IMG/VR virus record: IMGVR_UViG_3300032288_002854
Coordinates: 1 to 24,602 of that record
DNA length: 24,602 nt
From: a virus
Strand: one strand, 5' to 3'
A program made the translations under genes and the position numbers. Under the pieces are notes generated by a model. That model was not told where the DNA came from. It saw nothing but the letters and a program-made list of their open reading frames with translations, and ran no database searches. Positions 2,402 to 24,552 of this stretch are shown here, piece by piece (positions within the stretch are counted from its first letter, which is position 1; every line of letters begins with the position of its first letter).

Positions 2402-2980
2402 TCAAAACCCTAAAAGGGTTAAATGAGAGTTTTCTTTTTTATCGTACGCATGACTGGTCCATGGCCCATTGGCGTCTACATAATGGTAAAAACCTTGAAT
2501 ATGATAGGAATCTTGGGGGACACTGAACACGGGTCGGAAGTGGTTGACGTCCATTCCCCTATATATAGCGCCGTCACCCGGTTTCATGACGATTGGGCTG
2601 TCACCCATAACAAGGGGCCATTCATAATCCTTGCGGCGATAGTTGTATTCGTAGCAGACGCTCACAGATATTTCGCAAGCAGGTCGGTCTATGTGTGGAG
2701 CCAGTTCCTGACCGCGCCTGTAAACCCTGTAAAACGAATATGTGGGTATTAGCGACAACCCGGTGACTTCTTCTACTTTTTCTTTGTAGTCAAGAAGTAG
2801 GGACTCCATTAGGAAGTCCGCATAGACGGCGTGGGCGTTAATAACCTGAGCAGTGTCCGGCGTAAAGGAATATGCTTCTTTTAAGAGTGCATATTTTGAC
2901 ACAACAGAGACAACCGAGGCGTCTACAAAATTAGGTATATGAACGTAATTATCTATAAGAAAATCTCTCGTCTTACTCAT
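2402..2980 (-). CDS. Fe(II)/2-oxoglutarate-dependent oxygenase-like protein (second copy, divergent family)
   Basis: The product (192 residues from this start) matches a phage family of 2-oxoglutarate oxygenase-fold proteins. An SFYRVYRRGQELAPHID strand carries the H-x-D iron pair, followed by a RPACEISVSV strand, a KPGDGAIYRG turn and a second histidine in GMDVNHFRP; a QGFYHYVDANGPW segment follows. These give the 2-His-1-carboxylate facial triad. The 2-oxoglutarate-binding Arg/Lys is not placed with certainty. I chose ATG at 2980 (MSKTRDFLIDN) because it overlaps the preceding stop by only 8 bases. A longer frame from GTG at 3019 would overlap by 47. It is very different from the neighbouring 193-residue oxygenase, so the two probably have different substrates. 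Confidence 0.8.
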   Translation of the reverse strand: MSKTRDFLIDNYVHIPNFVDASVVSVVSKYALLKEAYSFTPDTAQVINAHAVYADFLMESLLLDYKEKVEEVTGLSLIPTYSFYRVYRRGQELAPHIDRPACEISVSVCYEYNYRRKDYEWPLVMGDSPIVMKPGDGAIYRGMDVNHFRPVFSVPQDSYHIQGFYHYVDANGPWTSHAYDKKENSHLTLLGF

Positions 2981-3554
2981 AACGCAGCCACGTAACAAGA
3001 GAGTACCTAATACCTTCACTTACAGGGTGGACAATGTGTGGAAATGAATAACAAGAAGGAAAGAACACAACATCACCAGCAGATGGAATGTATGTTATTC
3101 CTAAAGTTGGAAACTCTAATTTTCCGCCTTCAAAATCATCATTCAAAAAAGCAACCATGGACAAGACCCTATCTTTGTGGTCTCCACCACAATCATGGTG
3201 TTGCTTGTACTGCGTCCCCTTTTCATATTTTAAAATAAAATATCCTTCATCAAATAAGCCTCCCAAATTGTGGTGTCCGGCATATTGCTGGGTTGCTCCA
3301 GTAACTGCGTTAAAAACGTATTCATCAAGTTTCTGTGTACCGCCATCAATCATTACGTCGTTTGTTAAGTATATAGACTTGTTGCTTCTATATAGATTCT
3401 GAATATTTGGATTGTCTCTATCTTCAAAAGTGCTGGCGTATCCCCAGTTTAAAGAAATGTCGTTGTCTATTGCTTTTTCTATAGAGTCAATAATGATTTG
3501 AGGTTCACTCAACAACTTGTCGTAAACCCACAACGAAGGGTGTAGTACTTGCAT
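2973..3554 (-). CDS. Fe(II)/2-oxoglutarate-dependent dioxygenase, prolyl-4-hydroxylase-like
   Basis: The 193-residue product is a compact double-stranded beta-helix oxygenase of the P4H-like type. The iron ligands are visible as H119-x-D121 and a distal H173 in FPHIVHPVSEG. R183 in GIRYSLVTW is placed to bind 2-oxoglutarate. Between them lie the usual SMVAFLNDDFEGGKLEFP and PSAGDVVFFPS strands. It would hydroxylate a protein side chain or small molecule using O2 and 2-oxoglutarate. Its start overlaps the 247-residue gene stop by one base (TAATG). Its 3' end overlaps the second oxygenase. It lies about 2.5 kb downstream of collagen-like fibre genes, whose proline-containing repeats are one conceivable target. 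Confidence 0.9.
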   Translation of the reverse strand: MQVLHPSLWVYDKLLSEPQIIIDSIEKAIDNDISLNWGYASTFEDRDNPNIQNLYRSNKSIYLTNDVMIDGGTQKLDEYVFNAVTGATQQYAGHHNLGGLFDEGYFILKYEKGTQYKQHHDCGGDHKDRVLSMVAFLNDDFEGGKLEFPTLGITYIPSAGDVVFFPSCYSFPHIVHPVSEGIRYSLVTWLRYE

Positions 3555-4297
3555 TATTTTTCTTTTTTGGCTAGTTCAATATCAACTTTATGCTTATGCC
3601 GTCTATATGGTGCTGCGGTGCCTGTTGAAGGCATGATGTATCCCGACCCTAAACCGCTACTTGCAACATATTTAAAATAAGATTCATCTTCAAACTCAAT
3701 AGAAGAAAGATTAGTGCTTCGCTTAAATGGGACAACCTGCATCATTGGTGTTCCATACGGAATCATAAAATCAGTATTGGCTTTAATGTTTAAAACAATA
3801 TTAACTGTATGGTAAAAATCTGTATGAACAATTGCGGGTAAAACATCATAGTTTTCATTTGCTTCCCAATAAATAGGAAGCACCAAAGACGACCATCCTG
3901 GAGCGGTCTCAAAACGCCACGGAGTAACAATTTTAGGATATTGCATGTTTTCAAGTTTGCGAACACCAACAACAGGACATCCTGGGGTGTCCTGAATGGG
4001 AAAACCTTGAACCGATATGTTCTGAATAGGCGGATTCATGTTTTCAATGCGTGATTCCCAAAATCCGCCTTCTGGGTTTGGTCTAAAAAATAGATTGCTC
4101 CAAAGAGGAACAGTCATTCCCGATGAAAGATAGTCATTAACGCCTGCACACTTTTTTAAACCGGAACCATTAGGCATTGTTTTGTACCATTTTGGCATCG
4201 TTATTTGAGAGTTCAAATATGGAGGCATCTCCATTAAGCGGTTATCTTCTGGCGTTACCCTGATGTGCCCAGGTTTTACCGACTTTTTCTTTTTCAT
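3554..4297 (-). CDS. Uncharacterised phage protein, often seen with halogenase/oxygenase cassettes
   Basis: I cannot give a function. The 247-residue product starts with a lysine-rich segment (MKKKKSVKPG). It then has a pattern I associate with uncharacterised aquatic phage proteins: MPKWYKTMP, a LKKCAGVNDYLSSGMTVPLW segment, FETAPGWSSLVLP, an acidic/aromatic HTDFYHTVNI stretch, then IPYGTPMMQVVPFKR. The alternating strands and the conserved Pro/Trp turns suggest a beta-rich, possibly cupin-like fold, but I see no clear metal triad. It starts in an ATGA overlap with the halogenase stop, so it is translated with that enzyme and may supply substrate binding or another step in the same reaction path. 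Confidence 0.75.
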   Translation of the reverse strand: MKKKKSVKPGHIRVTPEDNRLMEMPPYLNSQITMPKWYKTMPNGSGLKKCAGVNDYLSSGMTVPLWSNLFFRPNPEGGFWESRIENMNPPIQNISVQGFPIQDTPGCPVVGVRKLENMQYPKIVTPWRFETAPGWSSLVLPIYWEANENYDVLPAIVHTDFYHTVNIVLNIKANTDFMIPYGTPMMQVVPFKRSTNLSSIEFEDESYFKYVASSGLGSGYIMPSTGTAAPYRRHKHKVDIELAKKEK

Positions 4298-5790
4298 TGC
4301 TTGTATTCCTCGTCTAAGTTTTCAATCTCCAGCAATCCGGCTCTATGGTCAACTAACTCGTGGTTGTGTCTAGAGTTCCTAAAGTTGTCCATTTCCATAT
4401 TTGTTTTTTGCCGTAAACCGAGTCTATCAAGAGCAAGCGAGGATGGCTCTTTTGGCAATAATCCCTGCCCCTGCATGACGTGAACCAAATGAGGCACCTG
4501 GAACATTAAGTTAATTTTTTGATACGGGTCATATCTGGATGGTGCTTTTTCAGACCATAAATCAATTAGTTCTTGAAGTTCGTCATTTAAAGGCATTTTA
4601 GACTGGTCAATCCAGAACTGTGAGTCTTGCCTATCGGATATATAGTGCAACCTAATCATCGTTAGTATGTTGCGCATTGTTTCAGTAATTGTTTTATTGT
4701 ACGCAATTTGCATCTTTGACGATTTTTTAGTATACGAAGCAACGTTTTGAATAAGCATTTTTAATTGAATCAACGTGCTTCCGATACTTGTGGCTTCCAG
4801 GGGTTCAACAAACGAGGAAGCAAGACCTACGGAAACACAGTTTTTTACCCACTGGTTTTTTAAGAATCCTGCATCGTATTTAAAAGTTTTGGGATTTTCT
4901 GAAACCTTGTATCCAGTCATCGCTTCCGCTTCTTTGATGGCCTCGTCTACGGATATGTGGGCAGAAGAAAAGATATAGCCATTGCCGCGACGCTCTTGTG
5001 TTGGTATTTCAAACATCCACCCCGAAGATGCTGCTCTTGCACGGGTGTACGGACGAATCTGCCCATTAGGGTCAGACTCTGTCGGGAAAGCAATTGCCGA
5101 GTCACAAAGAAGGTAAGAAGAAAAAGACTCCCACTCCGTATTTTCCAATTTAGTCATGAGCACTCTAGAAAATCCAGTAGCGTCAATCCAAAAATCTGCA
5201 GAAATAGTTGTTTGCTGTTCTGTGGTTACTGAAGATATTTCACCAGTTTCAGAATCAAGTTCTATTGAATCTACTTCGGCATCAACGAACTTAATCATTC
5301 TTGAGAAACATAATCCTGTTAAATAATCGTTTAGTTTATTAGTATCAAAATGAAACTGGTTTGTTGTCTTGTGAATGTTTCGTCTACCAATTTTGTTTTG
5401 TACAAGACCAGCACTCCCCGTCTGAGTAGTAATTAGTTTATTGGAGTCAATAAATCCTGCATAGGTAGCATATAAGCCGTGTGCAAAGATTTCATCCACT
5501 CCGCCAATGCTGTGAAAATAGTCCGGGGTATGGGTTGTCCAGTTCTCAAAACGAAGACCATATTTGTGTGTTGCGCTGGTATTTTCAATAAGTTCACCGG
5601 TTGGAATGTCACACTGATTCATGAACTCACGCCAGTGTTCTGTAGAGCCTTCACCAACGCCAATGATTCCTATTTTAGAAGAAGAAATTATTGTAATTTC
5701 TGAATGTTCAAACGCTTTTCGCAGCATTAAAGCAGAAACCAAACCGGCAGTTCCTGAGCCAACAATACAAAACGATAAACTATTATTCAT
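4294..5790 (-). CDS. FAD-dependent tryptophan-halogenase-type enzyme
   Basis: The 498-residue product has the normal length and order of flavin-dependent halogenases, which use FADH2, O2 and chloride or bromide to halogenate an aromatic ring. It shows the N-terminal FAD fingerprint IVGSGTAGL (9-17), GIIGVGEGST (41-50), and a lysine in ATHKYGLRFENW (K76) matching the catalytic Lys79 of PrnA. FVEPLEATS supplies E332, matching PrnA Glu346. The family signature WxWxIP appears as WMFEIP (258-263), with Phe in place of the second Trp. No flavin reductase lies in the window. The ATG has no Shine-Dalgarno site and follows a short inverted repeat containing a -10-like box, so this gene probably opens the accessory operon. 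Related genes are known in cyanophages. The substrate is unknown. Confidence 0.92.
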   Translation of the reverse strand: MNNSLSFCIVGSGTAGLVSALMLRKAFEHSEITIISSSKIGIIGVGEGSTEHWREFMNQCDIPTGELIENTSATHKYGLRFENWTTHTPDYFHSIGGVDEIFAHGLYATYAGFIDSNKLITTQTGSAGLVQNKIGRRNIHKTTNQFHFDTNKLNDYLTGLCFSRMIKFVDAEVDSIELDSETGEISSVTTEQQTTISADFWIDATGFSRVLMTKLENTEWESFSSYLLCDSAIAFPTESDPNGQIRPYTRARAASSGWMFEIPTQERRGNGYIFSSAHISVDEAIKEAEAMTGYKVSENPKTFKYDAGFLKNQWVKNCVSVGLASSFVEPLEATSIGSTLIQLKMLIQNVASYTKKSSKMQIAYNKTITETMRNILTMIRLHYISDRQDSQFWIDQSKMPLNDELQELIDLWSEKAPSRYDPYQKINLMFQVPHLVHVMQGQGLLPKEPSSLALDRLGLRQKTNMEMDNFRNSRHNHELVDHRAGLLEIENLDEEYKQ

Positions 5791-6065: not shown

Positions 6066-7913
6066 TTAAGTGTTTAAGAGTATGTATGTGGTTCCAGAAG
6101 AAGCCGTATACGTGTCAGATGCTGCTGTAGTGCCAGAACGCACATCGTAGGACAATCCAGACGGTGTAGTTTCTGTCAAGATAAGAATAGCACCACCGCC
6201 ACCCGCTCCGCCTCTCACTCCACTTGCGCCTGTTGTTCCTGCACCCCCTGCGCCTCCAGCACCTCCTGCTCCGCCAGCACCTCCTGCTCCGCCTGCGCCT
6301 CCAGTACCCCCGGCTCCACCTGCTCCTCCTGCTCCTCCGGCTCCACCTGCTCCTCCTGCTCCTCCAACGTAGTGAACGGTTGCATTGGCAACATGGGTTG
6401 CATGGGAAGGAGAATGAGGATTTACGTGCTGCTGAGAATGAGGATTTACGTGCTGCTGGGAATGAGGGTGAGAATGGGGATTTACGTGCTGTTGGTGATG
6501 AGGATTTGCAGTGTGATGAGGATTTGTGTGATGATGGGTCGTATGATGCCCACCAGGAGTATGGTGTCCACCGTCATGATATCCATGACTATTATCGTGA
6601 AATTGACAACAAACGTGATGGGGATGTACGTGATGATGTGTGCCGTGATGCCCACCATCAACATGATGGTGACCATTATTCACATGGTGCGGGGTCGTAT
6701 GGTGACCATTGTTAACATGTGCATTGCCGTGATGATGTGGAGTTGTATGGTGACCATTGCTGTGATGGGTCGGGGTCGTATGGTGACCATTGTTAACATG
6801 AGTTGGAGTAGCCGAATGCGGGGTAACCGTATAGTCGGGGGCTTTTGTTCCAGTAGCACCCGTAGTTCCAGTAGCACCAGTAGTTCCCGTGGCTCCCGTG
6901 GTTCCTGTTGCGCCAGTAGTTCCTGTGGCTCCAGTAGTTCCGCTAGCACCAGAAGCACCAGAAGCGCCTGAAACACCAGTAGCGCCGACAGTACCTATCA
7001 TGGCAAGAGACATAACCGTTCCGGTTCCCGTAATAGTCTTGGCGATAATTGCAACTACCGGTCCGCCCATTCCACCGCTTCCACCAATGCCGCCCGCACC
7101 TGAAACCCCACTTGCACCTCGTGCTCCACTTGCGCCAGATGCTCCAGATGCGCCCCTTGCTCCAGAAGCACCACTTGCGCCAGATGCTCCTTGTGCTCCG
7201 CTTGCTCCTCTTGCTCCAGATGCGCCTCTACCACCAGCAGCACCTACTGTTCCACCATCAGAAGGGTGTCCGCCAGCAACTCCAGTTGCACCAGCAATAC
7301 CTGTTGCTCCTGCCAAACCTGTGGCTCCTGCCAAACCTGTGGCTCCTGCAAGTCCGGTTGCTCCGGCGACTCCCGTTGCACCTGCCAGTCCTGTGGCTCC
7401 AGCGGTAGTGACACCAGATGCACCTGTAGTTCCACTAGAACCTCCTGCTAACGCAACAGGTGTAGGGCCGTAGACAGCGTCAATAATTGCGCCACCAAGC
7501 ATTGAAGTAACACTTTTAAGAAGATATGTAGGAAGAGCACTGACATTTGGGTCGGTGTTTCCTCCGCCTTGTCCACCTAGTCGGTAAGTAATGGCACCAG
7601 AAGTGTGACCAGAAAGCGTTCCTGTTGAAACAGCAGAGGCCGTACTGGCGATTGTTCCATTGCTAGAGCCAGCAGTATTACCAGTGACGTCACCAATACC
7701 AACAACGCCGTTGATGACTGCAGCGCCTTTAACAAATATTTTGAATCCCGAAGTAAGAAGAATGTTTCCTAGTGGGACAGTCAGTGTGTTGTAGTACATA
7801 TCCCTTGTAAGGGTTACGGTTCCACTGATGGTCACGTCGCCATCTGCGCCATTTCCGTAAACAGCATCATTTCCTGAACGAACAACGCTTGTTTCAATTC
7901 TTGAAATTGCCAT
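6066..7913 (-). CDS. Modular tail fibre/spike with collagen-like, His-rich and Gly-Gly-Ala regions
   Basis: The 615-residue product is a fibre or spike homologous to the upstream 254-residue protein but heavily expanded. The order is: an N-terminal domain shared with that protein (about 15-70, VYGNGADGD, LTRDMYYN, FKIFVKG); collagen-like GATGLAG repeats (about 168-213); GASGARG repeats (about 228-270); a short core segment GPVVAIIAKTITG (about 284-297); GTTGAT repeats (about 325-356); a histidine-rich stretch (366-514) with about 52 His and a Cys pair (435-436); Gly-Gly-Ala repeats (517-559); and a C-terminal strand region (GGGGAILILTE) matching the end of the 254-residue protein. The reading frame is continuous through all blocks. 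It starts two bases after the preceding stop, with AGG about 8 bases upstream. A receptor-binding or surface role is likely. Metal binding by the His-rich part is inferred from composition. Confidence 0.85.
   Translation of the reverse strand: MAISRIETSVVRSGNDAVYGNGADGDVTISGTVTLTRDMYYNTLTVPLGNILLTSGFKIFVKGAAVINGVVGIGDVTGNTAGSSNGTIASTASAVSTGTLSGHTSGAITYRLGGQGGGNTDPNVSALPTYLLKSVTSMLGGAIIDAVYGPTPVALAGGSSGTTGASGVTTAGATGLAGATGVAGATGLAGATGLAGATGLAGATGIAGATGVAGGHPSDGGTVGAAGGRGASGARGASGAQGASGASGASGARGASGASGASGARGASGVSGAGGIGGSGGMGGPVVAIIAKTITGTGTVMSLAMIGTVGATGVSGASGASGASGTTGATGTTGATGTTGATGTTGATGTTGATGTKAPDYTVTPHSATPTHVNNGHHTTPTHHSNGHHTTPHHHGNAHVNNGHHTTPHHVNNGHHHVDGGHHGTHHHVHPHHVCCQFHDNSHGYHDGGHHTPGGHHTTHHHTNPHHTANPHHQQHVNPHSHPHSQQHVNPHSQQHVNPHSPSHATHVANATVHYVGGAGGAGGAGGAGGAGGAGGTGGAGGAGGAGGAGGAGGAGGAGTTGASGVRGGAGGGGAILILTETTPSGLSYDVRSGTTAASDTYTASSGTTYILLNT
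6240..6365 (-). repeat. Gly-Gly-Ala coding repeat
   Basis: About 14 degenerate 9-base units encode Gly-Gly-Ala (once Gly-Gly-Thr), residues 517-558 of the fibre. Glycine at two of every three positions is unlike a collagen helix. It is closer to polyglycine-II packing, known for glycine-rich phage adhesins such as S16 gp38. Confidence 0.8.
6372..6818 (-). repeat. Histidine-rich coding minisatellite
   Basis: These bases encode residues 366-514 of the fibre, about one third histidine. Imperfect units are evident in both DNA and protein: HVNNGHHTTP-type units in the first half and SQQHVNPH-type units near the end. On the plus strand the first appear as recurring ATGGTGACCATTG blocks (near 6667-6800) and the last as recurring GAGGATTTACGTGCTGCTG blocks (near 6415-6500). 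This suggests growth by slippage or unequal recombination. Confidence 0.85.
6846..7433 (-). repeat. Collagen-like coding repeats of the His-rich fibre
   Basis: Three blocks of Gly-X-Y triplets are coded here: GATGLAG units (about 7274-7412), GASGARG/GASGAQG units (about 7105-7232) and GTTGAT units (about 6846-6941). They are separated by short non-repetitive segments that match the 254-residue homologue. X and Y are mostly Ala, Thr, Ser, Leu and Val, with a few Arg, and almost no proline. Confidence 0.8.
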
Positions 7914-7915
7914 AG

Positions 7916-8680
7916 TTAGACCTGCTGAATGTAATTTACAGTTCCAGCGTTTGCTCCGGTTACATCTGTTGAGACAGTACCAGGGAGTGCGCTTGCGGAA
8001 GAGACTATGAGTATGACGCCACCACCAGCGGGTGCAGTTGCTGGTGCTTGAATATATCCAGTTCCAGATGATGGACCGCTGATGTAACGAGCAGCAAGGA
8101 TGACAACTCCGCCACCTGCCTGTCCAGTACTACCAGCGCCTCCACGAAGGAACGTAGGTCCACCCGATGCGGTTATGGAGTATCCATTGATTGCCTGTAG
8201 TGGTTGTTTGAAATAGTTAGCGCCACCTAACGCTGTAGTAGGTGCAGTGGCTGTATAGGTTGCAGTTGCGTTGCCACCGAGACTATGTGTCACCGAGGTA
8301 GTTGCTGCTCCGCCTTGCATGATTGAACCACTAGTTGCGTATCCAGTCGTAAAGCCAACAATAGAACTTGTTCCAAAACGCAAGGTTCCCTTAACGAAGA
8401 TTCTGTAACCATTAGGAGCAAGACGGACGCTATTGCCTAATGTTAAGTCGTTGAAGTAGATATCGCGCGTCATGGAGTACACGCTTGAGGATGGAGCCAT
8501 GCTTAAAACTGTCGTGGTTCCGTCCAGGGTCGCGTCACCATCAGCACCAGTTCCATAAACGGTGTCAACGCTTTCGTTGTAGTAGGCATTCCACACAGCC
8601 CCATCCCATTGCCAACTCTTAGGACCAACAGTATAAATTTGATTTACATACGGAGAAGCAGGAAAAGTAATCGCTGGCAT
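7916..8680 (-). CDS. Tail fibre/spike protein, glycine-rich beta-type
   Basis: The 254-residue product begins with a short attachment-type segment ([16 protein letters not shown], then SWQWDGAVWNAY). This is followed by a domain shared with the 615-residue fibre: VYGTGADGDATLDG, MTRDIYFNDLTL, NGYRIFVKGTL. The remainder is glycine- and alanine-rich, with hydrophobic strands (GGGVVILAARYISG, GGGVILIVSS) suggesting a repetitive beta structure. It starts in a TAATG one-base overlap with the preceding fibre gene. It looks like the unexpanded relative of the His-rich fibre; the two may co-assemble or be alternative tips. The receptor is unknown. Confidence 0.8.
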   Translation of the reverse strand: MPAITFPASPYVNQIYTVGPKSWQWDGAVWNAYYNESVDTVYGTGADGDATLDGTTTVLSMAPSSSVYSMTRDIYFNDLTLGNSVRLAPNGYRIFVKGTLRFGTSSIVGFTTGYATSGSIMQGGAATTSVTHSLGGNATATYTATAPTTALGGANYFKQPLQAINGYSITASGGPTFLRGGAGSTGQAGGGVVILAARYISGPSSGTGYIQAPATAPAGGGVILIVSSASALPGTVSTDVTGANAGTVNYIQQV

Positions 8681-10458
8681 TATGCGGCCTCGTATGTTCC
8701 AGAGATAACGATGTAATCAGCACTACCAAAAGTAATTGGAGCCACAGAGCTAACTCCAACCCATGTATTACCTGATGAAGCAGGTGTGATTGCAGTAAAG
8801 TAGGAAGTGCTGCCCTTGTAGTTACCAGGAATAATTGCTGCATACCATGCATTTCCACTATCAAGAATTGAGCCAGTAAACTGATAGTTTGTGTCATAGG
8901 CAGTGACTGGGAGAGTAAACATCCATGCCCCTGATGCACCTGTAGTAGTACTTCCGTATGTTAGTTTCATACTAAAGTTTACTGTTTTTCCAATCTGTTG
9001 GTAGCGTCCTGTTATTGAACCATTACCAATGCTAGGGGTTCCTGAGTCAGCAGTCCAAGTTGGTGTGTAGGTTGTCCAAGCGCCAGTCCAAGCATAAGCA
9101 ACCCATGACGAACCGTTATACACAAACATTTTATTTGTGTCTGTTTCATAGATGGTTTGACCAGTCCACGGTGCAGATGGACGAGTAGATGAAGTAACTT
9201 GCATTGGCGACATTGAACCGCCACCTAGTTCAACCCATGCCGAGTTGTAGTAGATGTAAGAAGCACCAGTAGTTGTGTCAAACCAAACTTGACCAGCAGT
9301 TGGTGATACTGGTGCAGTTGCAGAACTTGTAATTCCTATAGGTCCTGTTGGGCCCGTTACGCCTGTTGGTCCTGTAGCACCTGTTGGACCAGTTGCACCT
9401 GTCGTCCCACTTACGCCTGATACTCCTGAGACACCAGAAACGCCAGAGACTCCAGACACACCAGATATTCCTGAAACACCACTTACACCAGAGACGCCTT
9501 GAGGACCAGTTGGACCTACGGGTCCGATACCTCCAGTTTCAACCCACTCAATAAGGTCTGTGCCAATTTTGATGGCACTACCAGCAGCAGTGCCGTAATT
9601 CGATTGAATATAAGTTGTACCTGCATGGTCGCCTTCAGCAACAAGAGTGAAGTCTCCGTTTTCAACTTGACCAGCAATACTGTTGTCAAAGTCGGTTGCA
9701 CGAGTAAACTTGTATTTAGAACCCGCAGAACCAAGACTTGTTACGGTGTAAATACCGTTTTCAATTTTATTTGTTCTTCCTGAAAAAAGAACACGGTCGC
9801 CAACAATGATTGTTGCTCCGCCAATTGCAGAAATAGCACCATTAGCATTTGCTTCAATGTACGCGCCAATACCGTAACCTTCGCTTTGGTCGGCGGTTCC
9901 AGCAAAATAAGTACTTGAACCCATGGTGTCTACAACTGTTTTTACGGTTGCGTGGGCGTTTTGTGCTCCAGGAACACCAGAAACTCCGCTTACGCCCGAT
10001 ACGCCACTAACTCCAGAGACACCAGAAACACCCGACACCCCTGAAACTCCAGAAACGCCCGTTGCTCCGATTACTCCACTGACACCCGATACTCCAGAAA
10101 CACCTGAGACTCCACTAACACCCGAAACGCCTTGAATTCCCGTAGGACCAGTCGCTCCCGTTGCGCCTATGACACCACTTACACCCGAGACACCCGAGAC
10201 ACCGGACACTCCAGACACTCCACTGACGCCTGTTGGTCCGATTACTCCACTAACACCTGAAACACCCGAGACTCCAGAAACTCCAGATACACCCTGGGGT
10301 CCAGAACTGTAAGCAAGGGAAGTCCAAGCAGTACTACCATTACCTACCTTGAACTTACCTGTGTCGGTTTCTGCGCCGAGTTCACCTACGGCAAGAGTCG
10401 GGTTTGCAGCCGTCCACTCTGCGGCGGTGCCACGTCTAAATTGAATCTGAATAGCCAT
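8680..10458 (-). CDS. Large collagen-like tail fibre
   Basis: From the ATG at 10458 the product is 592 residues. The order is: an N-terminal Mtd-like module ([16 protein letters not shown], then [16 protein letters not shown]) that usually attaches fibres to the baseplate; 38 uninterrupted Gly-X-Y triplets, mostly Gly-Val-Ser (53-166); a globular domain with [20 protein letters not shown] (about 170-310) also present in the 434-residue fibre; 22 more triplets (312-377); two GQxWxxTxTG-type modules (about 385-455); and a C-terminal head ([18 protein letters not shown] and onward). A TTG three bases earlier is possible, but the ATG has AGGAGG at an ideal 6-base spacing and overlaps the previous stop as TGATG. 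Its likely role is trimeric host-receptor recognition. Confidence 0.87.
9334..9531 (-). repeat. Collagen-like coding repeat, second block of the large fibre
   Basis: About 22 Gly-X-Y triplets: GPV/GPT/GPQ, then a run of Gly-Val-Ser, then GPT/GAT triplets ending GPIG. The 9-base units are degenerate at third codon positions, so selection has kept the amino-acid pattern rather than the exact DNA. Confidence 0.85.
9964..10302 (-). repeat. Collagen-like coding repeat, first block of the large fibre
   Basis: 38 consecutive Gly-X-Y triplets with no interruption. Runs of 5, 6, 6 and 9 Gly-Val-Ser triplets are separated by GVI-GPT or GVI-GAT punctuation, giving a higher-order repeat. The block ends GVP-GAQ. 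This is the longest collagen-like helix in the window. Confidence 0.87.
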
Positions 10459-11171
10459 CAAACACCTCCTGAATCAAGCGAAGAAATACCACCGTAATTA
10501 GTGGATGGCTCACCACCATCAATATTAACAACAGAACTGCCCGTGGGACCGGTACTACCTGTAGCACCCGTCGGACCGACAGGGCCAGATGGACCAGACG
10601 GACCAGTGGGTCCAATCTGTCCTAGAGGCTGTGCTCCAATTTCAATCCACTGGGAATCGTAATAAACGAAAGTCTTACCCGTATCTGACTCAAACCAAAT
10701 CTGACCAGCGAACGGGGTGGCTGGGGCACTGTCGGAGACTGTTGCTCCACCTGCAGCATTTGAGTTTACCCACGCAGTTCCGTTGTATTGCAGAACTTGG
10801 TTGGTAGCAATGCTTGTTATGGTTACGTCAGTTAAGTCATCAATAGAAGCTACGGTTGATGCAACTCCTGGAATGAACTTGGTTCCGTTGAATTTAAGTA
10901 CCTGGTCGCTTGTCGCGCCAGTTGTGTCTACTTCAATCCCGTCAATGAAGAGAGCAGGGACCTTGAAGGTATCGTCTGTTTTGAGTACGTTTGCTGCGTC
11001 ACGATAGAGGTTTACGTCCCCGCCCTGGGTTCCGTCACCCCAAACAAGGCGACCACCACCCTGAATCTGCAGTCTTGCAAAAGTTTCTTGGTCTACAAAA
11101 ATTGTCAACCCATCAGAACCAGCAGACGACAGCTGCTTAATGGCGATAGGGGTTATAAATTTTTGAGCCAT
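10458..11171 (-). CDS. Tail fibre protein with short collagen-like tail
   Basis: The 237-residue product starts [14 protein letters not shown], like the 434-residue fibre (MAQKFLTNIDLNQ), suggesting the same attachment site. It has a short beta segment ([18 protein letters not shown]) and two VLKFNGT / VLQYNGTAW modules separated by [33 protein letters not shown] module follows, also found twice in the large fibre. Then come 8-9 collagen triplets (about 187-211, GPT/GPS/GPV), and it ends with [15 protein letters not shown]. It is followed by the large fibre in a TGATG overlap. It may be an adaptor or a separate short fibre. Confidence 0.82.
10465..10470 (-). promoter_or_regulatory. Strong Shine-Dalgarno site deciding the large-fibre start
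   Basis: AGGAGG on the minus strand lies 6 bases before the ATG at 10458, favouring that start over the TTG at 10461. Confidence 0.75.
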
Positions 11172-18598: not shown

Positions 18599-19426
18599 TT
18601 AGTAACCTCCAATCCTTCCCGACACAATGAGCGCAAGCCGTTTTTTTTCTTTTGCAGCAATAGCAGCCAGTCTTGCTTTTTCTCTCCAGTATGCAGGGTC
18701 GTTGACCCCTCCTGTGTTTTTGTCTGTCTTCGGCTTTTTTGTCGTTGGAAATTTTCCATATCTAAACTTTGGTAAAAGTATAAACTTTTGCCTAAGTGGC
18801 TTATACTCAATTAAGGAAATGTTGCACGAAGCAGAAACTGTTTCACCTGTTCGGTTGTCGCGCGTATAGGTAAATGTAAGATTATCTATATACCAGTAAT
18901 TTTCGCGCATTATTGCGTTGACATTGTCGAAACCTACTGGCATTCCCATGTCTGTTATTAATTGAAGTTGTTTAATTTCAGATTCAATGCTGGCGTAAAA
19001 GTTATTAATATACTCCCAGTTGGTTCCTGTTGCTCTTTTAACAATTAAGAATTCAAAAGAAACCCTCCTGCTTTTACCTCCTTTTATGTCAACTATCGGA
19101 ATATTGTATGGTCTTGGTAGTTCTGACAACTCTGCGCCAAAACCCTCTACAGTAAAACTTCCAGGAGCAACAGAAAACACGTATTCATAACCTGGTTCAG
19201 CCATCATGTACATGGTTCTCCACTCTGGGGTAATGTCCACTGCTTCCGGCAAAGGGGGTAGCTGCAAGACAAGACCATTGATTTGAGCTTCTCTTGCTTT
19301 TGCAAGAGCGTTTCTTTCTGCAAGACTCTTACCGGCATCTCTAGCCGGCGCACGAACAGCCGCTCTTCTTGCGTAGGCATCTGCGTCAGATGAGCTAAAT
19401 TCCCTTCCAGTAATACTGATTCCCAT
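18599..19426 (-). CDS. Contractile-tail tube/LysM-type protein (XkdP-like)
   Basis: The 275-residue product lies directly after the tape measure gene and before the hub, the position of XkdP in PBSX. Residues 60-230 have the expected pattern: MMAEPGYEYVFSVAPGSFTV, GGKSRRVSFEFLIVKRATG, EIKQLQLITDMGMPVGFDNV, YWYIDNLTFTYTRDNRTGE and ISLIEYKPLRQKF. XkdP-type proteins usually end in a LysM domain; here the C-terminus is instead a basic, lysine-rich tail (AYWREKARLAAIAAKEKKR), so a LysM is not evident. It starts in a TAATG one-base overlap with the tape measure stop. Confidence 0.75.
   Translation of the reverse strand: MGISITGREFSSSDADAYARRAAVRAPARDAGKSLAERNALAKAREAQINGLVLQLPPLPEAVDITPEWRTMYMMAEPGYEYVFSVAPGSFTVEGFGAELSELPRPYNIPIVDIKGGKSRRVSFEFLIVKRATGTNWEYINNFYASIESEIKQLQLITDMGMPVGFDNVNAIMRENYWYIDNLTFTYTRDNRTGETVSASCNISLIEYKPLRQKFILLPKFRYGKFPTTKKPKTDKNTGGVNDPAYWREKARLAAIAAKEKKRLALIVSGRIGGY
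18606..18610 (-). promoter_or_regulatory. Shine-Dalgarno site supporting the hub start
   Basis: GGAGG on the minus strand lies 11 bases before the ATG at 18594, spacing somewhat long but the only good site near the end of the preceding gene. Confidence 0.5.
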
Positions 19427-22400
19427 TACGACCTACGTCTCCAAGTTTTTTGAATTTCTGCTATTTGTCTTACGACCTCTTGGGCTGTAGCTTTTGCGTC
19501 TTTACTCTCCACCACAGTGATGTTAAAACTATCACCTTCATACGTTGAAGATGCTGGAGATGCACCAACTGAACCCATGCGACCAGACGAAGTATCACCC
19601 ATTGGGCTTGGCGGAGGCACAACATGCAAATGACGAGAGCCAGCAGAACCGTGGAATTCAGCAAAGCCACCAGAGGTATTGATTAGGTTTGCATACATTC
19701 CTAGGTTTTGACCAGTCAGGTCATAAGCGTTTCCTGTTACATGGTCAGAGCTTGGTGAGCCAAGTCCATAGTTGCGCCATGAACTTGTTACGCTTCGCTT
19801 GCCGCCCACGAGACCGTTGAAGTAGTTATGTCTACTCATGGTTCTGCCAAGCGTCTTAGAGACAGACGTATCGCCTATAGCGCCAGCACGTGGTGAACTC
19901 GTGTCTGCTGGAACAATCTTATTATCTTCAATTTTTAATCCTTCCGCCCACCATGACGGAGTGTTGTTCCACCATTCCGGCTGTGACGTAGCAGACATAA
20001 GGCCGGAGTTAATAGCTTCGAGGAACCCGTCTCTAATAGTTGACTGCGTTTCTGTTAGCTGCTTATTAGCTTCTGCGCCAGTTTTGTCAGCACCTAATTT
20101 AAACCCGCCAAATGAGCTTCCCAAGTTTTTGGTATTTGCACCCTCTGCTGTTCCACCGAGAAGATTTGACAAAATCTTTGCATTGTTATTATTGTCTTTA
20201 GTAAAAATGTTTCCACTTCCAGAAAGTGTTGACTGCAGACTGGTTAATTCCGTTATGGCGGTTTTGTCTCCACTACCAGCTTTGTCGAGAAGCTTACTTA
20301 TTTTATCTTGCATCATTGCGGATGCGCCTTCAGCGTCCTCAAAGTTAACTCCAGCTCCTGTTAGCTTTGAGCCAAGCTGTGCAGTCATTGTTTTTGCTAG
20401 GTCGGTTTGTTCCTGTGTAAGGGCTTGGCCTGCTAAAGCGTCAAATTCTGCGTTTCGTTTTACGCCATAAAGAGCGCCGCCTTTTTCGTAAGCTGCTCCG
20501 CTCTCAAATTCTTTTTGCCTTGCAAGAAAGTTACCCAGCGGGTCATTTGGATTTTCAGCATTTTGAAAGTCCATGGCTTTCGTGTAGTAATCCATGTAGG
20601 CTTCGGTGCTTGTATCTCCACCACGCAACTTGTTACCAGCAGACTGAATAGCGTCTTGCATTTCTTTTTTCTTAGTAAACTTATCGAACACACTAAGGCT
20701 TTTCACGCCAACGTCACGTAAGGCTTGATTGAATTGGTCAGCCGTTTTAATCATTCCTGCACCAAGTTTTACAACAGCATCTTCTAGCTTGATGGTTGGG
20801 TCATAAAGGTTAACGTTCATCTTTGTAGCAAGGGTTACAATTTCTTCAGATGTCATGCCCGTAGAAAGCTTTAAACTGCTCATAATGTTGTCAAACTGGT
20901 CAAATGCTGGCGTTAATGCCTTGTCCATATCTTCAGAAACAGTAAGCATCTTTTTACGAGCATCGTCAGATGCATGACCTTCGCTCATCGTGTCGTATGT
21001 CGTCTGGTCAATAACACCCTGGTCAAGGTATGTTTTGAGCATTGCTCTTCTTTTTGTGTTATTTTCTTTTCCGCTAGATGTTCGTGAGTTAAAATCTTGA
21101 GCAAATGTTTTGAACTCGCTTAGATTTTTCCTAGCGTTTTGTGTTGTTCCTGTTTTAAGACCTTCTTCAATAGCTGAAGTAGCAATTTTAAACATATTCG
21201 AGTTTGCAACTGCTTCGGCACCTTTTTTAGCCATCTTTGCTTGGTTTTTTCTAGCAAAAGCCATACCGACAACGGCACCAATACCGGCTCCAATTACTGC
21301 ACCCCACGGACCAATCATTGCTCCTATTGCGGCTCCAGAGGCAGCTCCAGCCAGCGCTCCACCCTTCTTGGTTCTTGCTCCCATTGCGGCACCACCAAAT
21401 CCAACTGCAGCGCCAAGTAGCGGGTTAACGGCCATCAGGGCAGCACCGGTACGCATAGAGTTTTGCGCGCTTTCATCGCCAATCAGCTTTTTTCCCATTC
21501 CAGTATTAAGGAAGAGGTCCGTTCCGACTCCAGCTAATGCCCCCATGCCAGACATTGAGTTTTTTATTCCGGCTTTAACCATCTTTCCGCGGCTAAGTTT
21601 TTCGCCAGCTTCCTGCTGTCTCTTGCGTTCTACTTCCATTCCTTCCTCAAAGTTGCCGCCGCCTAATCCAGGGATGCCGCTCATCTTGAAACCTTCGGTA
21701 CCAAAACTCTGTCCAAATAGTCCTCTACCAAGTCTGGCGCGTATTCCAGTATTAAAAGATGCTCCAGGACCAGTTCCGGTACCAGCGGTCACTTGACCAC
21801 CAACACCAAATCTTGCCCTTATTGCACCCATCTTTCCGCTGACGCCTTTTGCGTCACCAATGCTTGGCAAGTCTGGCCTAGCTCCGCCCCAGTATGCTTC
21901 TTTGGCTAGAGCTGGAACACCCTTAAGGTACATTTTTGTACCCCCAAGACTTTCTTTTACGCTCGCCTTTACAGCTCCAGGAATTCTTTTAAAAAAACCA
22001 CCAGCTCGTTTAAATCTTCCACGTGGAGAACGTCTCTCTTTTTCAGCATCTTGCTCGTCCATTGCCGTGCGCCACCATTCGCGGTATGAACCACTTTCTA
22101 GCTCGCTTTTTGTTGCAGCTTCAAGTGCCTTTTGCTGACCAATTTGTTTTGCTTGCTGGGCTCCGTAAGACTTGTTAACCCAGTCTTCACTAGCCCTGGC
22201 TCTCTCATATGCTGACTGGGCACTTTCTTGACCTGGACGGTTTCCTCGTTGTTCAAGGGGGAGTGCGCTTGGTTCTTCAAGGCCTAGCATTCTTCTGTAT
22301 GCTATTTGACGCCTTTTTATGGCATCTTTCTTTGGGTCCCCCGTCATCATGGACTCGTCTAGTACTGCATTCTTCTCTAATGCGGCACTGAGGCCACCTT

Positions 22401-24552
22401 GAGCCGCCATCCAGGCTTTCATGTCTTGTCTATATGTTGCGCTGTCTTGACCTGGTTTTCTGGTTGGGAAATTTAGTATGTCTCCAGCTCGGTCAACTGA
22501 ACCTCCTGTTTTGCCGCCTCTAAGTGAATCTCCATAGCTTCCTGAAGCAAATTTTGTTACAGCTGTCTGAAATTCAGTAACAGCAGCCATTTGAGTTTCG
22601 GCCGCTATTGCCATTTTGTCTGCAGCAGGTTCCGCAACTGGTATTAAGGACTCTAGATTTTTCTCCGCCATAGCAACGGCTTTTGATTTTGTTTTTTTGC
22701 CATCAGCCAGTGCATCACCAATAACTTTTGCAGCTTTTACATCGTCAGCGTGAGAAGTGATTTGGTCCATCAGCGCAGGACCAGAGCCAGGTGTGGTCAT
22801 ACGTCCAGCTATTCCTAGTGCGTCGTTCATTGCCCTGTCAGCACTTGGTGCTTCCATTGTTGGCATAGTAAGTCCACTGCCGACAAACTCGTCTGGATTT
22901 ACGATAACTTTTCCTCTGTTGGCTCCAGATTTGACTCTTTGCTGTCTGTTTGCGTTTCTTCCTTTGTACGCAAGATACGACATGCCGGCAATTCCTGCTG
23001 CTCCACCAAAAGAACCAAGCCCAGAAAGCAAACGCAGCACCTTTGCTACCGCGTTCATGATTGTAGATATAGCGTCTAAAACTTTATTAATTACCGGAAG
23101 GGCAACTACAAAGGCTTCTTTCGTAGCTGCTCCCATATTAAAGAAGGCTTCGACTATCCCCTTTAATCTTTCACCAAACTGTTTGTAGATGTCTTTGTTC
23201 TTTACGCCGAGATTTGCAAGGTGTTTGACGTTGTCGCCAATTGACTTAAAAATTTGGACTAACGGAAGACCAAATGTTTTTATTATTGCTGAGCCGCCTT
23301 CTCTAAGTGGAGCTAGAGAGTCTCTGACGTCCCTGAATTCAGCAGCAAAAGCCTTAAAAGCATCTCCTGTTCTTTTCCACCATCCAGCAGCAGCGGGAAG
23401 AAATTTTCTAAACAAGTTAATTGAAAACTCTTCTGTCTTTGCTGCCAAGTTAACCATGGCTGGCAAAACACCACCTCTACCGAACGCTGTAAAGTCACCG
23501 CTAAGTCTTCTGAAAGACTGCCTCAATCCAGCAAAAATCTTATCCATTGCGTCACTAAGTGGGGCAAGCATTCTTCTACCAACATCGCCAAGCTCGACAT
23601 ACATGTTGGTGACCATGCCTTTAAACTTGCCAAAGATTGTTCCAGCAACTGTATCGGCTTGACCAGCAACTCCAGCTTTTTTGGCTAGCTTGCCAGACAT
23701 CAGGTCTTGCAATAGCTTTCCAGTATCGCCTACGTTGTTACCTTTGAACATATTGGAGAATGCTGGGCCAACTTCTTGTGCGGCGGCTTTTAGTTCACCC
23801 GCAAAGTCGGTATTAGCTTTGGCTCCGCGCTGAATAAGGCTTAGAAAGTTTGCAGCACCTTGTAGTTGCTTGTCTTGGTTAGGTCCGGCACTAACGAAGT
23901 CAGCCATCGCCTCTAGCTGCTTAATCATTTTCCCGTCAACTTTTGCATTCTTTGATGCAGTTGCATATGCGGAGCTGAGCGATTTAATACCGTACGATGC
24001 AAGTGTTGCGTTGGTCATCATCATTCGCATTGCGTCTGCTGATTGCTCCAGTCCTGTTCCGAGGGTTTTAGAGTCTTTATAATTGAACGCGTACTGTGCA
24101 GCTTGAAACTCTTGGAATGCTGCAGCCGCTGCCATCGCTGCGGCCCCTAAGGCCGCTAGACCGCCAGCAACAGCCTGCATGCCCCACCGATATGCCTGCA
24201 TAGCTATTTTTCCAAGAGCAAATGCTGCGTTTACGCTGGCTAATGAAAGTGCCGTAACGGCAAACTCAAGGCCCATTCCTATAACGGCATAAGTAACAAC
24301 TCTTGCCATTTTCAGGGCTTTACCGCCAACTTTTTCTAAAAGCGTAAGGTCCCTAACAAGTTGTTTTGCACCTTTTGAATTTGTGGTCACTTGTGTATTG
24401 GAAAGACCCATCTTTCCAGCAAGGCCACCCATTGCTTTTTCTGTTGCAGTTCCCTGTCTTCCGAGTGCGAGCAGCTGTGTTTGCAGAAGCGCTATTTGCC
24501 TCTGGTCTTTGACATCAATGTCGATTACTACTGATACGCGTTCGTCAGCCAC
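19426..24552 (-). CDS. Tape measure protein with C-terminal LAS-type metallopeptidase signature
   Basis: The 1708-residue product is by far the longest and sets tail length as a scaffold inside the tube. The start is GTG at 24552 with GGGG upstream. It has an N-terminal helical region, a long hydrophobic Ala/Gly stretch (about 85-146), basic helical parts, a glycine-zipper membrane-like region (about 1040-1105, GAASGAAIGAMIGPWGAVIG) and a helical second half. Near the C-terminus SSDHVTGNAYD (H1604-x6-D1611) and HLH (1641-1643), with E1632 between, give the zinc-ligand pattern of M15/LAS peptidases, which cut peptidoglycan peptide links. The hydrophobic segments would help cross the host membrane at injection. 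At about 1.5 angstrom per residue a tail near 250 nm is implied; that figure is inference. Confidence 0.93.
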   Translation of the reverse strand: MADERVSVVIDIDVKDQRQIALLQTQLLALGRQGTATEKAMGGLAGKMGLSNTQVTTNSKGAKQLVRDLTLLEKVGGKALKMARVVTYAVIGMGLEFAVTALSLASVNAAFALGKIAMQAYRWGMQAVAGGLAALGAAAMAAAAAFQEFQAAQYAFNYKDSKTLGTGLEQSADAMRMMMTNATLASYGIKSLSSAYATASKNAKVDGKMIKQLEAMADFVSAGPNQDKQLQGAANFLSLIQRGAKANTDFAGELKAAAQEVGPAFSNMFKGNNVGDTGKLLQDLMSGKLAKKAGVAGQADTVAGTIFGKFKGMVTNMYVELGDVGRRMLAPLSDAMDKIFAGLRQSFRRLSGDFTAFGRGGVLPAMVNLAAKTEEFSINLFRKFLPAAAGWWKRTGDAFKAFAAEFRDVRDSLAPLREGGSAIIKTFGLPLVQIFKSIGDNVKHLANLGVKNKDIYKQFGERLKGIVEAFFNMGAATKEAFVVALPVINKVLDAISTIMNAVAKVLRLLSGLGSFGGAAGIAGMSYLAYKGRNANRQQRVKSGANRGKVIVNPDEFVGSGLTMPTMEAPSADRAMNDALGIAGRMTTPGSGPALMDQITSHADDVKAAKVIGDALADGKKTKSKAVAMAEKNLESLIPVAEPAADKMAIAAETQMAAVTEFQTAVTKFASGSYGDSLRGGKTGGSVDRAGDILNFPTRKPGQDSATYRQDMKAWMAAQGGLSAALEKNAVLDESMMTGDPKKDAIKRRQIAYRRMLGLEEPSALPLEQRGNRPGQESAQSAYERARASEDWVNKSYGAQQAKQIGQQKALEAATKSELESGSYREWWRTAMDEQDAEKERRSPRGRFKRAGGFFKRIPGAVKASVKESLGGTKMYLKGVPALAKEAYWGGARPDLPSIGDAKGVSGKMGAIRARFGVGGQVTAGTGTGPGASFNTGIRARLGRGLFGQSFGTEGFKMSGIPGLGGGNFEEGMEVERKRQQEAGEKLSRGKMVKAGIKNSMSGMGALAGVGTDLFLNTGMGKKLIGDESAQNSMRTGAALMAVNPLLGAAVGFGGAAMGARTKKGGALAGAASGAAIGAMIGPWGAVIGAGIGAVVGMAFARKNQAKMAKKGAEAVANSNMFKIATSAIEEGLKTGTTQNARKNLSEFKTFAQDFNSRTSSGKENNTKRRAMLKTYLDQGVIDQTTYDTMSEGHASDDARKKMLTVSEDMDKALTPAFDQFDNIMSSLKLSTGMTSEEIVTLATKMNVNLYDPTIKLEDAVVKLGAGMIKTADQFNQALRDVGVKSLSVFDKFTKKKEMQDAIQSAGNKLRGGDTSTEAYMDYYTKAMDFQNAENPNDPLGNFLARQKEFESGAAYEKGGALYGVKRNAEFDALAGQALTQEQTDLAKTMTAQLGSKLTGAGVNFEDAEGASAMMQDKISKLLDKAGSGDKTAITELTSLQSTLSGSGNIFTKDNNNNAKILSNLLGGTAEGANTKNLGSSFGGFKLGADKTGAEANKQLTETQSTIRDGFLEAINSGLMSATSQPEWWNNTPSWWAEGLKIEDNKIVPADTSSPRAGAIGDTSVSKTLGRTMSRHNYFNGLVGGKRSVTSSWRNYGLGSPSSDHVTGNAYDLTGQNLGMYANLINTSGGFAEFHGSAGSRHLHVVPPPSPMGDTSSGRMGSVGASPASSTYEGDSFNITVVESKDAKATAQEVVRQIAEIQKTWRRRS

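Follow-up and report, generated by a model that had tools for sequence, protein, structure and literature searches.

The window analysed here is a 24,602-base IMG/VR virus fragment that carries a contractile-tail module on the minus strand. The module runs from the tape measure through the baseplate genes, including a baseplate-J homologue, to several fibre genes. One of these encodes a 615-aa protein with a long His-rich segment, and a halogenase-like gene lies behind it. The features of the locus, all on the minus strand, are as follows.

2402-3019, minus: putative second 2OG-Fe(II) oxygenase (our reading of an HxD...H pattern; the PHROGs family label is 'ferrochelatase')
2973-3554, minus: 2OG-Fe(II) oxygenase (phrog_61, E 1e-28)
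3554-4297, minus: 247-aa protein linked to the halogenase (phrog_7084)
4294-5790, minus: flavin-dependent (tryptophan) halogenase-like gene (PF04820, E 8.2e-103)
6066-7913, minus: 615-aa tail-fibre protein with the His-rich segment (Pfam Collagen, E 7.7e-12; PHROG tail fibre profiles)
6069-6215, minus: C-terminal domain GGAILILTETTPSGLSYDVRSG..., residues 567-615, with the C-terminal beta element
6237-6365, minus: (GGA)n glycine-rich repeat, residues 517-559; its start motif Y[VAP]GG[AP]GG is retained in most relatives
6372-6818, minus: His-rich hypervariable segment, residues 366-514, 52 His in 149 residues; composition kept in 36 distinct relatives
6606-6611, minus: Cys435-Cys436 pair inside PHHVCCQFHDN (PHHHCCDSH[DN] in the five closest haplotypes)
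6846-6986, minus: collagen-like repeat 3, (GTTGAT)n, residues 310-356 (best Pfam Collagen stretch 307-357)
6993-7058, minus: predicted beta element VVAIIAKTITGTGTVMSLAMIG, residues 286-307, with a counterpart in the small paralogue by eye
7065-7235, minus: collagen-like repeat 2, (GASGAR)n, residues 227-283
7269-7433, minus: collagen-like repeat 1, (GATGLA)n, residues 161-215
7443-7913, minus: N-terminal domain DGDVTISGTVTLTRDMYYNTLTV..., residues 1-157, common by alignment to the small paralogue and to relatives without His
7916-8680, minus: small His-poor paralogue, 254 aa, with a related N-terminal domain, directly upstream of the fibre gene
8680-10461, minus: neighbouring collagen-like fibre with an Mtd_N domain and long (SGV)n arrays
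19426-24552, minus: tape measure

The earlier assignment of the protein to a tail fibre is supported by its collagen and tail-fibre profiles, the adjoining Mtd_N fibre and the baseplate/tape-measure module. With Gly-X-Y repeats in a tail-module gene (Pfam Collagen, PHROG profiles, baseplate-J and tape-measure neighbours), it is a predicted collagen-like phage tail fibre. The fibres of PHROG 6320, 5073 and 8745 have collagen repeats and tail-module position in common with it, but their profile matches do not include the His-rich segment. A low-confidence model places beta strands at residues 26-74 of the N-terminal domain. The small His-poor paralogue accompanies the fibre in 60/60 His-rich loci.

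We checked whether the His-rich segment is real and coding. Its extent and its counts are exactly those of the preliminary description: residues 366-514, read on the minus strand from window position 6818 to 6372, hold 52 His in 149 residues (35%), and Cys occurs at 435-436 only. In comparison, the rest of the 615-aa protein has 2 His. A single unbroken ORF runs from the collagen-like repeats through the His segment into the GGA repeats, also as described before. Across the segment, the remaining two minus-strand frames contain 4 and 7 stops; one plus-strand frame is open as well (0 stops), as expected from the composition. We assign the minus-strand frame as coding because six independent haplotypes (the window, L001, L004, L005, L007 and L022/L028) keep it open despite differing in segment length (114-153 aa, with 42-51 His), and because the changes in this frame are synonymous. 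In an ungapped 52-codon His core common to three relatives, we counted 14-19 synonymous versus 2-5 non-synonymous differences, and the His codon differences were mostly CAC versus CAT rather than losses of His. The dN/dS of the core was 0.013-0.062, versus 0.08-0.24 in the N-terminal domain of the fibre (three relatives). The histidines of the segment are under strong purifying selection in close relatives. A frameshift inside the repeat, which the preliminary description had named as fatal to its proposal, disagrees with the frame kept in six haplotypes and with the low dN/dS; together with the stops in the alternative minus-strand frames, these results exclude a frame artefact.

Performing a chance control, we found that none of 413 other ORFs (at least 200 aa, related loci) exceeded 10 His per 60-residue window, with a median of about 2, while the fibres of the His-rich family have 10-27. 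Simple expansion of CAY repeats was also rejected by a control scan: among 120 other viral contigs with the HHHxxxHHHxxxHHH DNA pattern, nearly all matches fell in short frames and none in a fibre-like long ORF.

A search for similar His-rich fibres in viral metagenomes, proposed at the outset, was carried out and recovered about 60 related loci. Pattern and profile scans of viral contigs (IMG/VR) yielded first a sister clade and later a set of 76 loci whose scaffolds are related. Of these, 60 contain an ORF that reaches at least 10 His in 60 residues, the His-positive set being defined by this His threshold and the denominator by scaffold patterns independent of it; L166 qualifies too and was dropped by an overlap filter. 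Most of the remaining scaffold loci are either truncated at a contig end or distantly related. An added scaffold-motif filter gave 54 loci with 36 distinct fibres, which group into 22 scaffold clusters at 80% identity. Each of the 36 has one His-rich segment in the same place, between the collagen-like stretch and the GGA repeats, and 13-40% of its residues are His, versus 0-1% outside it in that protein. A single long run of about 45-290 residues makes up the segment. The preliminary description had also considered that most strains might lack the segment; among the relatives, it is present in essentially all close ones. In the sister clade (L152, L154, L155 and L156), the segment holds about 48 His (40%) and lacks Cys, and collagen repeats are nearly absent from the fibre. 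The Cys-Cys pair was accordingly rejected as an essential feature, since this clade keeps its His without it. L154 sits on an 88.8-kb contig, which can serve the group as a reference genome.

We compared segments with scaffolds across the family. In many cluster pairs with scaffolds 56-72% identical, the identity of the segments lay mostly within 1-2 s.d. of shuffled controls (window/L170, 0.39 versus 0.41; L186/L216, 0.31 versus 0.33), and related segments were retained in some pairs (L197/L225, L179/L185 and L167/L176). Since the segments resemble shuffled sequence while their scaffolds do not, it is the composition, and not the sequence, that is conserved. The segment thus varies more than the preliminary description supposed. 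Distant members of the family have non-repetitive segments, still with 13-30% His, and relatives without His have Gly-rich sequence in place of the segment. In a tree of the short scaffold domain (84 columns, moderate inner support), the His-bearing fibres form one group (90/84) that includes one long-branched row without His, and the other His-less relatives and the small paralogues fall outside. The His-rich fibres are thus essentially one clade with nearly all His-less relatives outside it, and so His-richness was retained rather than re-acquired.

The mean composition of the segments, taken over 22 cluster representatives, is 25% His, 12% Gly and 7-8% each of Asn, Pro, Ala, Ser and Thr. 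Lys, Arg, Asp and Glu together make up about 6% of the residues, which leaves His as the one ionisable or ligating side chain present in abundance. Cys amounts to 1.2% in the segments versus 0.18% elsewhere in the same proteins (odds ratio 6.9, p 2.5e-11). The segments contain nine CC pairs, mostly beside His, and motifs with His near CC occur in clusters with otherwise dissimilar segments (HTCCGH, HAPCCT, HVCCTSGHHHACCSYH and HHVCCQFH). Metal binding or a pH-dependent charge of the segment is plausible, and the Cys enrichment and the CC pairs add support. Two or three Cys-Cys pairs stand beside His in the segments of L166, L232 and L170 (HTCCGHHHH, HAPCCTAGPHY and HVCCTSGHHHACCSYHTHDACCTRG); these would be the best candidates for discrete metal sites.

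The spacing of the histidines was checked next to that of known metal sites. In T4-type fibres and in the fibre of Alteromonas phage R22Y, HxH iron sites are the basis of the published idea that phage tails carry iron (PMC11705849). His in a phage fibre has been proposed or shown to bind metal at the T4 gp37 tip and in R22Y (PMC11705849), a likeness to our fibre; those proteins have 6-7 regularly placed HxH, while here there are about 50 His per chain, Cys is present, and HxH is depleted in the window segment (8 observed versus 17.6 expected, z -3.5). Across the family, HxH is neutral (181 versus 193 expected, z -1.2). The model of T4 gp37-type iron sites mentioned in the preliminary description is therefore not supported, and these counts reject the HxH motif as the organising principle. 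HH, HxxH (z -5.3) and HxxxH (z -4.1) are under-represented in the family segments, and the spacing of 7 residues shows a modest excess (z 4.4), to which repeats contribute. The repeats of the window segment make 5, 6, 10 and 11 its prevailing spacings. Hence the spacing statistics point to no HxH iron needle and to no helical zinc sites of the HxxxH type. A better fit would be a coordination network such as His-rich structural proteins have, or a role of polyhistidine without metal.

Two known systems share the layout of the fibre. The gp38 adhesins of T2 and S16 bind receptors through hypervariable regions flanked by glycine-rich motifs (PMC12892980). Like the gp38 of T2, S16 and PP01, with its PGII sandwich and hypervariable loops, our protein is a phage fibre that joins a Gly-rich-flanked hypervariable segment to a beta-rich body. 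The gp38 loops are not His-rich, however, and the flanks here are collagen-like GXX and GGA repeats around one long segment. No sequence homology to gp38 was found in the PDB profile search, and the PHROG matches are collagen-like fibres. The preCols of the mussel byssus combine collagen, Gly-rich and His-rich domains in one chain with reversible His-metal bonds; their His-rich domains bind Zn, Cu and Ni and respond to pH near pKa 6.5 (PMC6477608). The phage fibre likewise joins a His-rich domain (about 20% His or more) to collagen-like and glycine-rich domains in a single chain, as an analogy only: preCols are load-bearing animal proteins with terminal domains of 20-100 aa and about 20% His and have no homology to the fibre, whose segment is internal and hypervariable.

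Structure and database searches gave little. The AlphaFold monomer model of the full fibre had a pLDDT of 35.6 (31-42 in the His segment, with no structure there), the model of the small paralogue was too poor to use, and Foldseek found nothing significant in the PDB. The segment profile had no PDB match at E up to 1, hence no preCol or solved His-rich homologue, and the PDB profile search of the fibre returned collagens and unrelated chains, with no adhesin. Searching 50,697 phage genomes with the fibre, the paralogue and the N-terminal domain of a relative gave no match, at a sensitivity limited by low-complexity masking, and no isolated phage with this fibre was found among them. The sole find of a GTDB scan was a contig from a Patescibacteria MAG with the scaffold and without the His segment. 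Among ORFs of at least 150 aa, the cultured actinophages nearest by tail genes had no recognised counterpart; in Gordonia phage Hanem, up to 14 His per 60 occur in unfiltered frames that are apparently non-coding. Full-text literature searches returned phage fibres with six or seven HxH sites and nothing of comparable His density. The fibre would belong with the known phage fibres that have hypervariable adhesin segments and His that bind metal, and we found no description of such a His density.

The host was approached through the tail and packaging genes. The window baseplate-J homologue matches Arthrobacter, Gordonia and Brevibacterium phages. On the 88.8-kb contig of a relative (G002), the terminase is 44% identical to those of Gordonia phages, and all matches of the tail sheath are to actinobacteriophages. 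From these matches, the host is likely actinobacterial. Actinomycetota have anionic wall polymers. To our knowledge, these Gram-positive bacteria have no TonB-type outer-membrane siderophore receptors.

Our preferred reading, to which we give a probability of roughly 0.42, is that the segment is a hypervariable, probably receptor-facing part of the fibre whose shape would be set by metal coordination through His (and Cys). We infer its virion and distal location, the trimer, the metal binding and the receptor role. In a trimeric tail fibre, the segment would be a hypervariable part that lies exposed and probably recognises the host, entered by the collagen-like shaft and left through the (GGA)n stretch, with a histidine-based scaffold in place of a hydrophobic core. 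The His, aided by Cys or Cys-Cys in several lineages, would coordinate transition metals both inside each of the three chains and from one chain to the next; Zn or some other soft divalent ion is the most likely metal. This coordination would fix an otherwise structureless, nearly uncharged loop, and the residues between the His would then be free to vary for receptor recognition. We favour a metal-organised segment because the composition is retained, Cys is enriched, other ionisable residues are scarce and the layout is gp38-like. Against it, the spacings typical of known metal sites are not enriched, the AlphaFold model is structureless across the segment, and the genome searches turned up no isolated phage with the fibre. 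If true, the fibre would reveal a design rule for variable binding proteins for which we found no precedent, where the chemistry (His and some Cys) is kept and the rest changes. Metal dependence in phage fibres would then go beyond a few HxH sites and reach tens of ligands per chain, and trace metals and pH would influence how phages attach in natural waters. The fibre would also offer a testable candidate for what phage-encoded halogenases modify in nature.

The main rival, which we hold to be possible though rather unlikely, is adhesion that depends on pH and polyanions without metal. About 150 His per trimer would titrate near pH 6-7, and the segment, neutral in lake water, would become polycationic near an acidic or anionic surface and bind teichoic acids or other wall polymers. 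It agrees with His being the only abundant titratable residue and with the anionic walls of the probable Actinomycetota hosts, and the mussel-thread domains offer a precedent for pH response near pKa 6.5 (PMC6477608). A metal-free His-rich polyelectrolyte would show the identical sequence signature. Such adhesion, however, leaves the Cys enrichment and the recurrent Cys-Cys pairs beside His unexplained and gives no reason why Lys or Arg is not used.

The genes behind the fibre raise the question of whether the segment is a substrate. The halogenase-like protein matches PF04820 and carries the motifs of flavin-dependent halogenases: GSGTAG for GxGxxG, WMFEIP for the WxWxIP type (Phe replacing the second Trp), and KYGLRF with a candidate catalytic Lys. 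A halogenase lies behind the fibre in 40/40 His loci whose sequence extends at least 4.5 kb downstream versus 0/7 relatives without His (L188, which carries a His-rich ORF, is not among the seven), at 31 to 4142 bp from the fibre (median 1.3 kb). The 247-aa protein and the 2OG-Fe(II) oxygenase accompany it in most loci, and most loci retain the WxWxIP-type motifs. On this reading, the halogenase and the 2OG-Fe(II) oxygenases would modify His, Tyr or collagen Pro and thereby harden or diversify the fibre. The linkage and the kept motifs speak for it, as do weak matches of the halogenase to the protein-modifying flavoenzymes LodB, GoxB and QhpG and the viral halogenase VirX1, which is described as iodinating diverse substrates (Gkotsi et al. 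2019, cited in PMC10452541). But the loci are one lineage, and the linkage may reflect common descent only; the LodB, GoxB and QhpG scores are far below cut-offs, and in the window segment Trp is absent and Tyr occurs twice. Moreover, cyanophages and a pelagiphage (e.g. S-H38, P-SSM2, HTVC008M and Syn10) carry halogenases of the same enzyme family (PF04820, phrog_2928; 24-38% identity), sometimes near 2OG oxygenases as in the window, and yet no His-rich ORF lies within about 10 kb of the halogenase in S-H38, HTVC008M, P-SSM2 or S-SCSM2R. We consider the substrate reading improbable. The jaw proteins Nvjp-1 and Nai11527 of Nereis are Gly-/His-rich and Zn-binding and form a halogenated material (PMC13120676), but they are animal proteins, and the tie of the phage fibre to halogenation is gene neighbourhood only. 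We give a slim chance to a viral counterpart of such metal-hardened, halogenated animal materials, an adhesin matured both by metal and by enzymes, with a metal-crosslinked His/Cys segment that the halogenase and the Fe(II)/2OG oxygenases would also modify.

Metal cargo of the Ferrojan type, with the fibre mistaken for a siderophore complex or feeding iron or another metal to the host, is very unlikely to us. The idea has been published for T4-type HxH fibres and R22Y (PMC11705849). Against it stand the HxH depletion in the window segment and the Cys-containing variants, which favour soft metals over iron. The binding of a metal-siderophore receptor, suggested in the preliminary description, is weakened by the nearest isolated phages (terminase, sheath and baseplate J), which infect Gordonia, Arthrobacter and Brevibacterium; it fits poorly because the probable Gram-positive, actinobacterial hosts would have no TonB-type outer-membrane receptors. 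Least probable of all is a slippage-made neutral spacer with functionless His, which the length variation (114-153 aa) and the repeats of the closest haplotypes (e.g. HVNPHSQQ and HHHVNGG) would suit, but which is opposed by the core dN/dS of 0.01-0.06, the non-repetitive, 13-30% His segments of distant members, the confinement of other DNA-pattern matches to short frames and the Gly-rich replacement in His-less relatives.

Three further observations were made alongside. At the fragment end, on the opposite strand (165-1394, plus), lies a cytochrome P450 gene (PF00067, E 1.9e-32), and among NCBIfam models the cyclodipeptide-synthase-associated P450 family comes closest to it, with a score below cut-off; the gene had no match in the records of six relatives and may be specific to the window phage. 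The ORF of L122 with HHHWHHHWHHHHARHHHARHHHHRH spans 300 residues, in which an apparent signal peptide precedes a His-rich stretch, and is unrelated to the fibres. Large fibres in L182 (4738-7866), L185 (5962-7824) and L209 (6652-8745) have extra domains of the type IGDTGPAGGxIFITPS...SDWFLPSxNEL, which adjoin or sit within the His-rich fibre and suggest domain shuffling.
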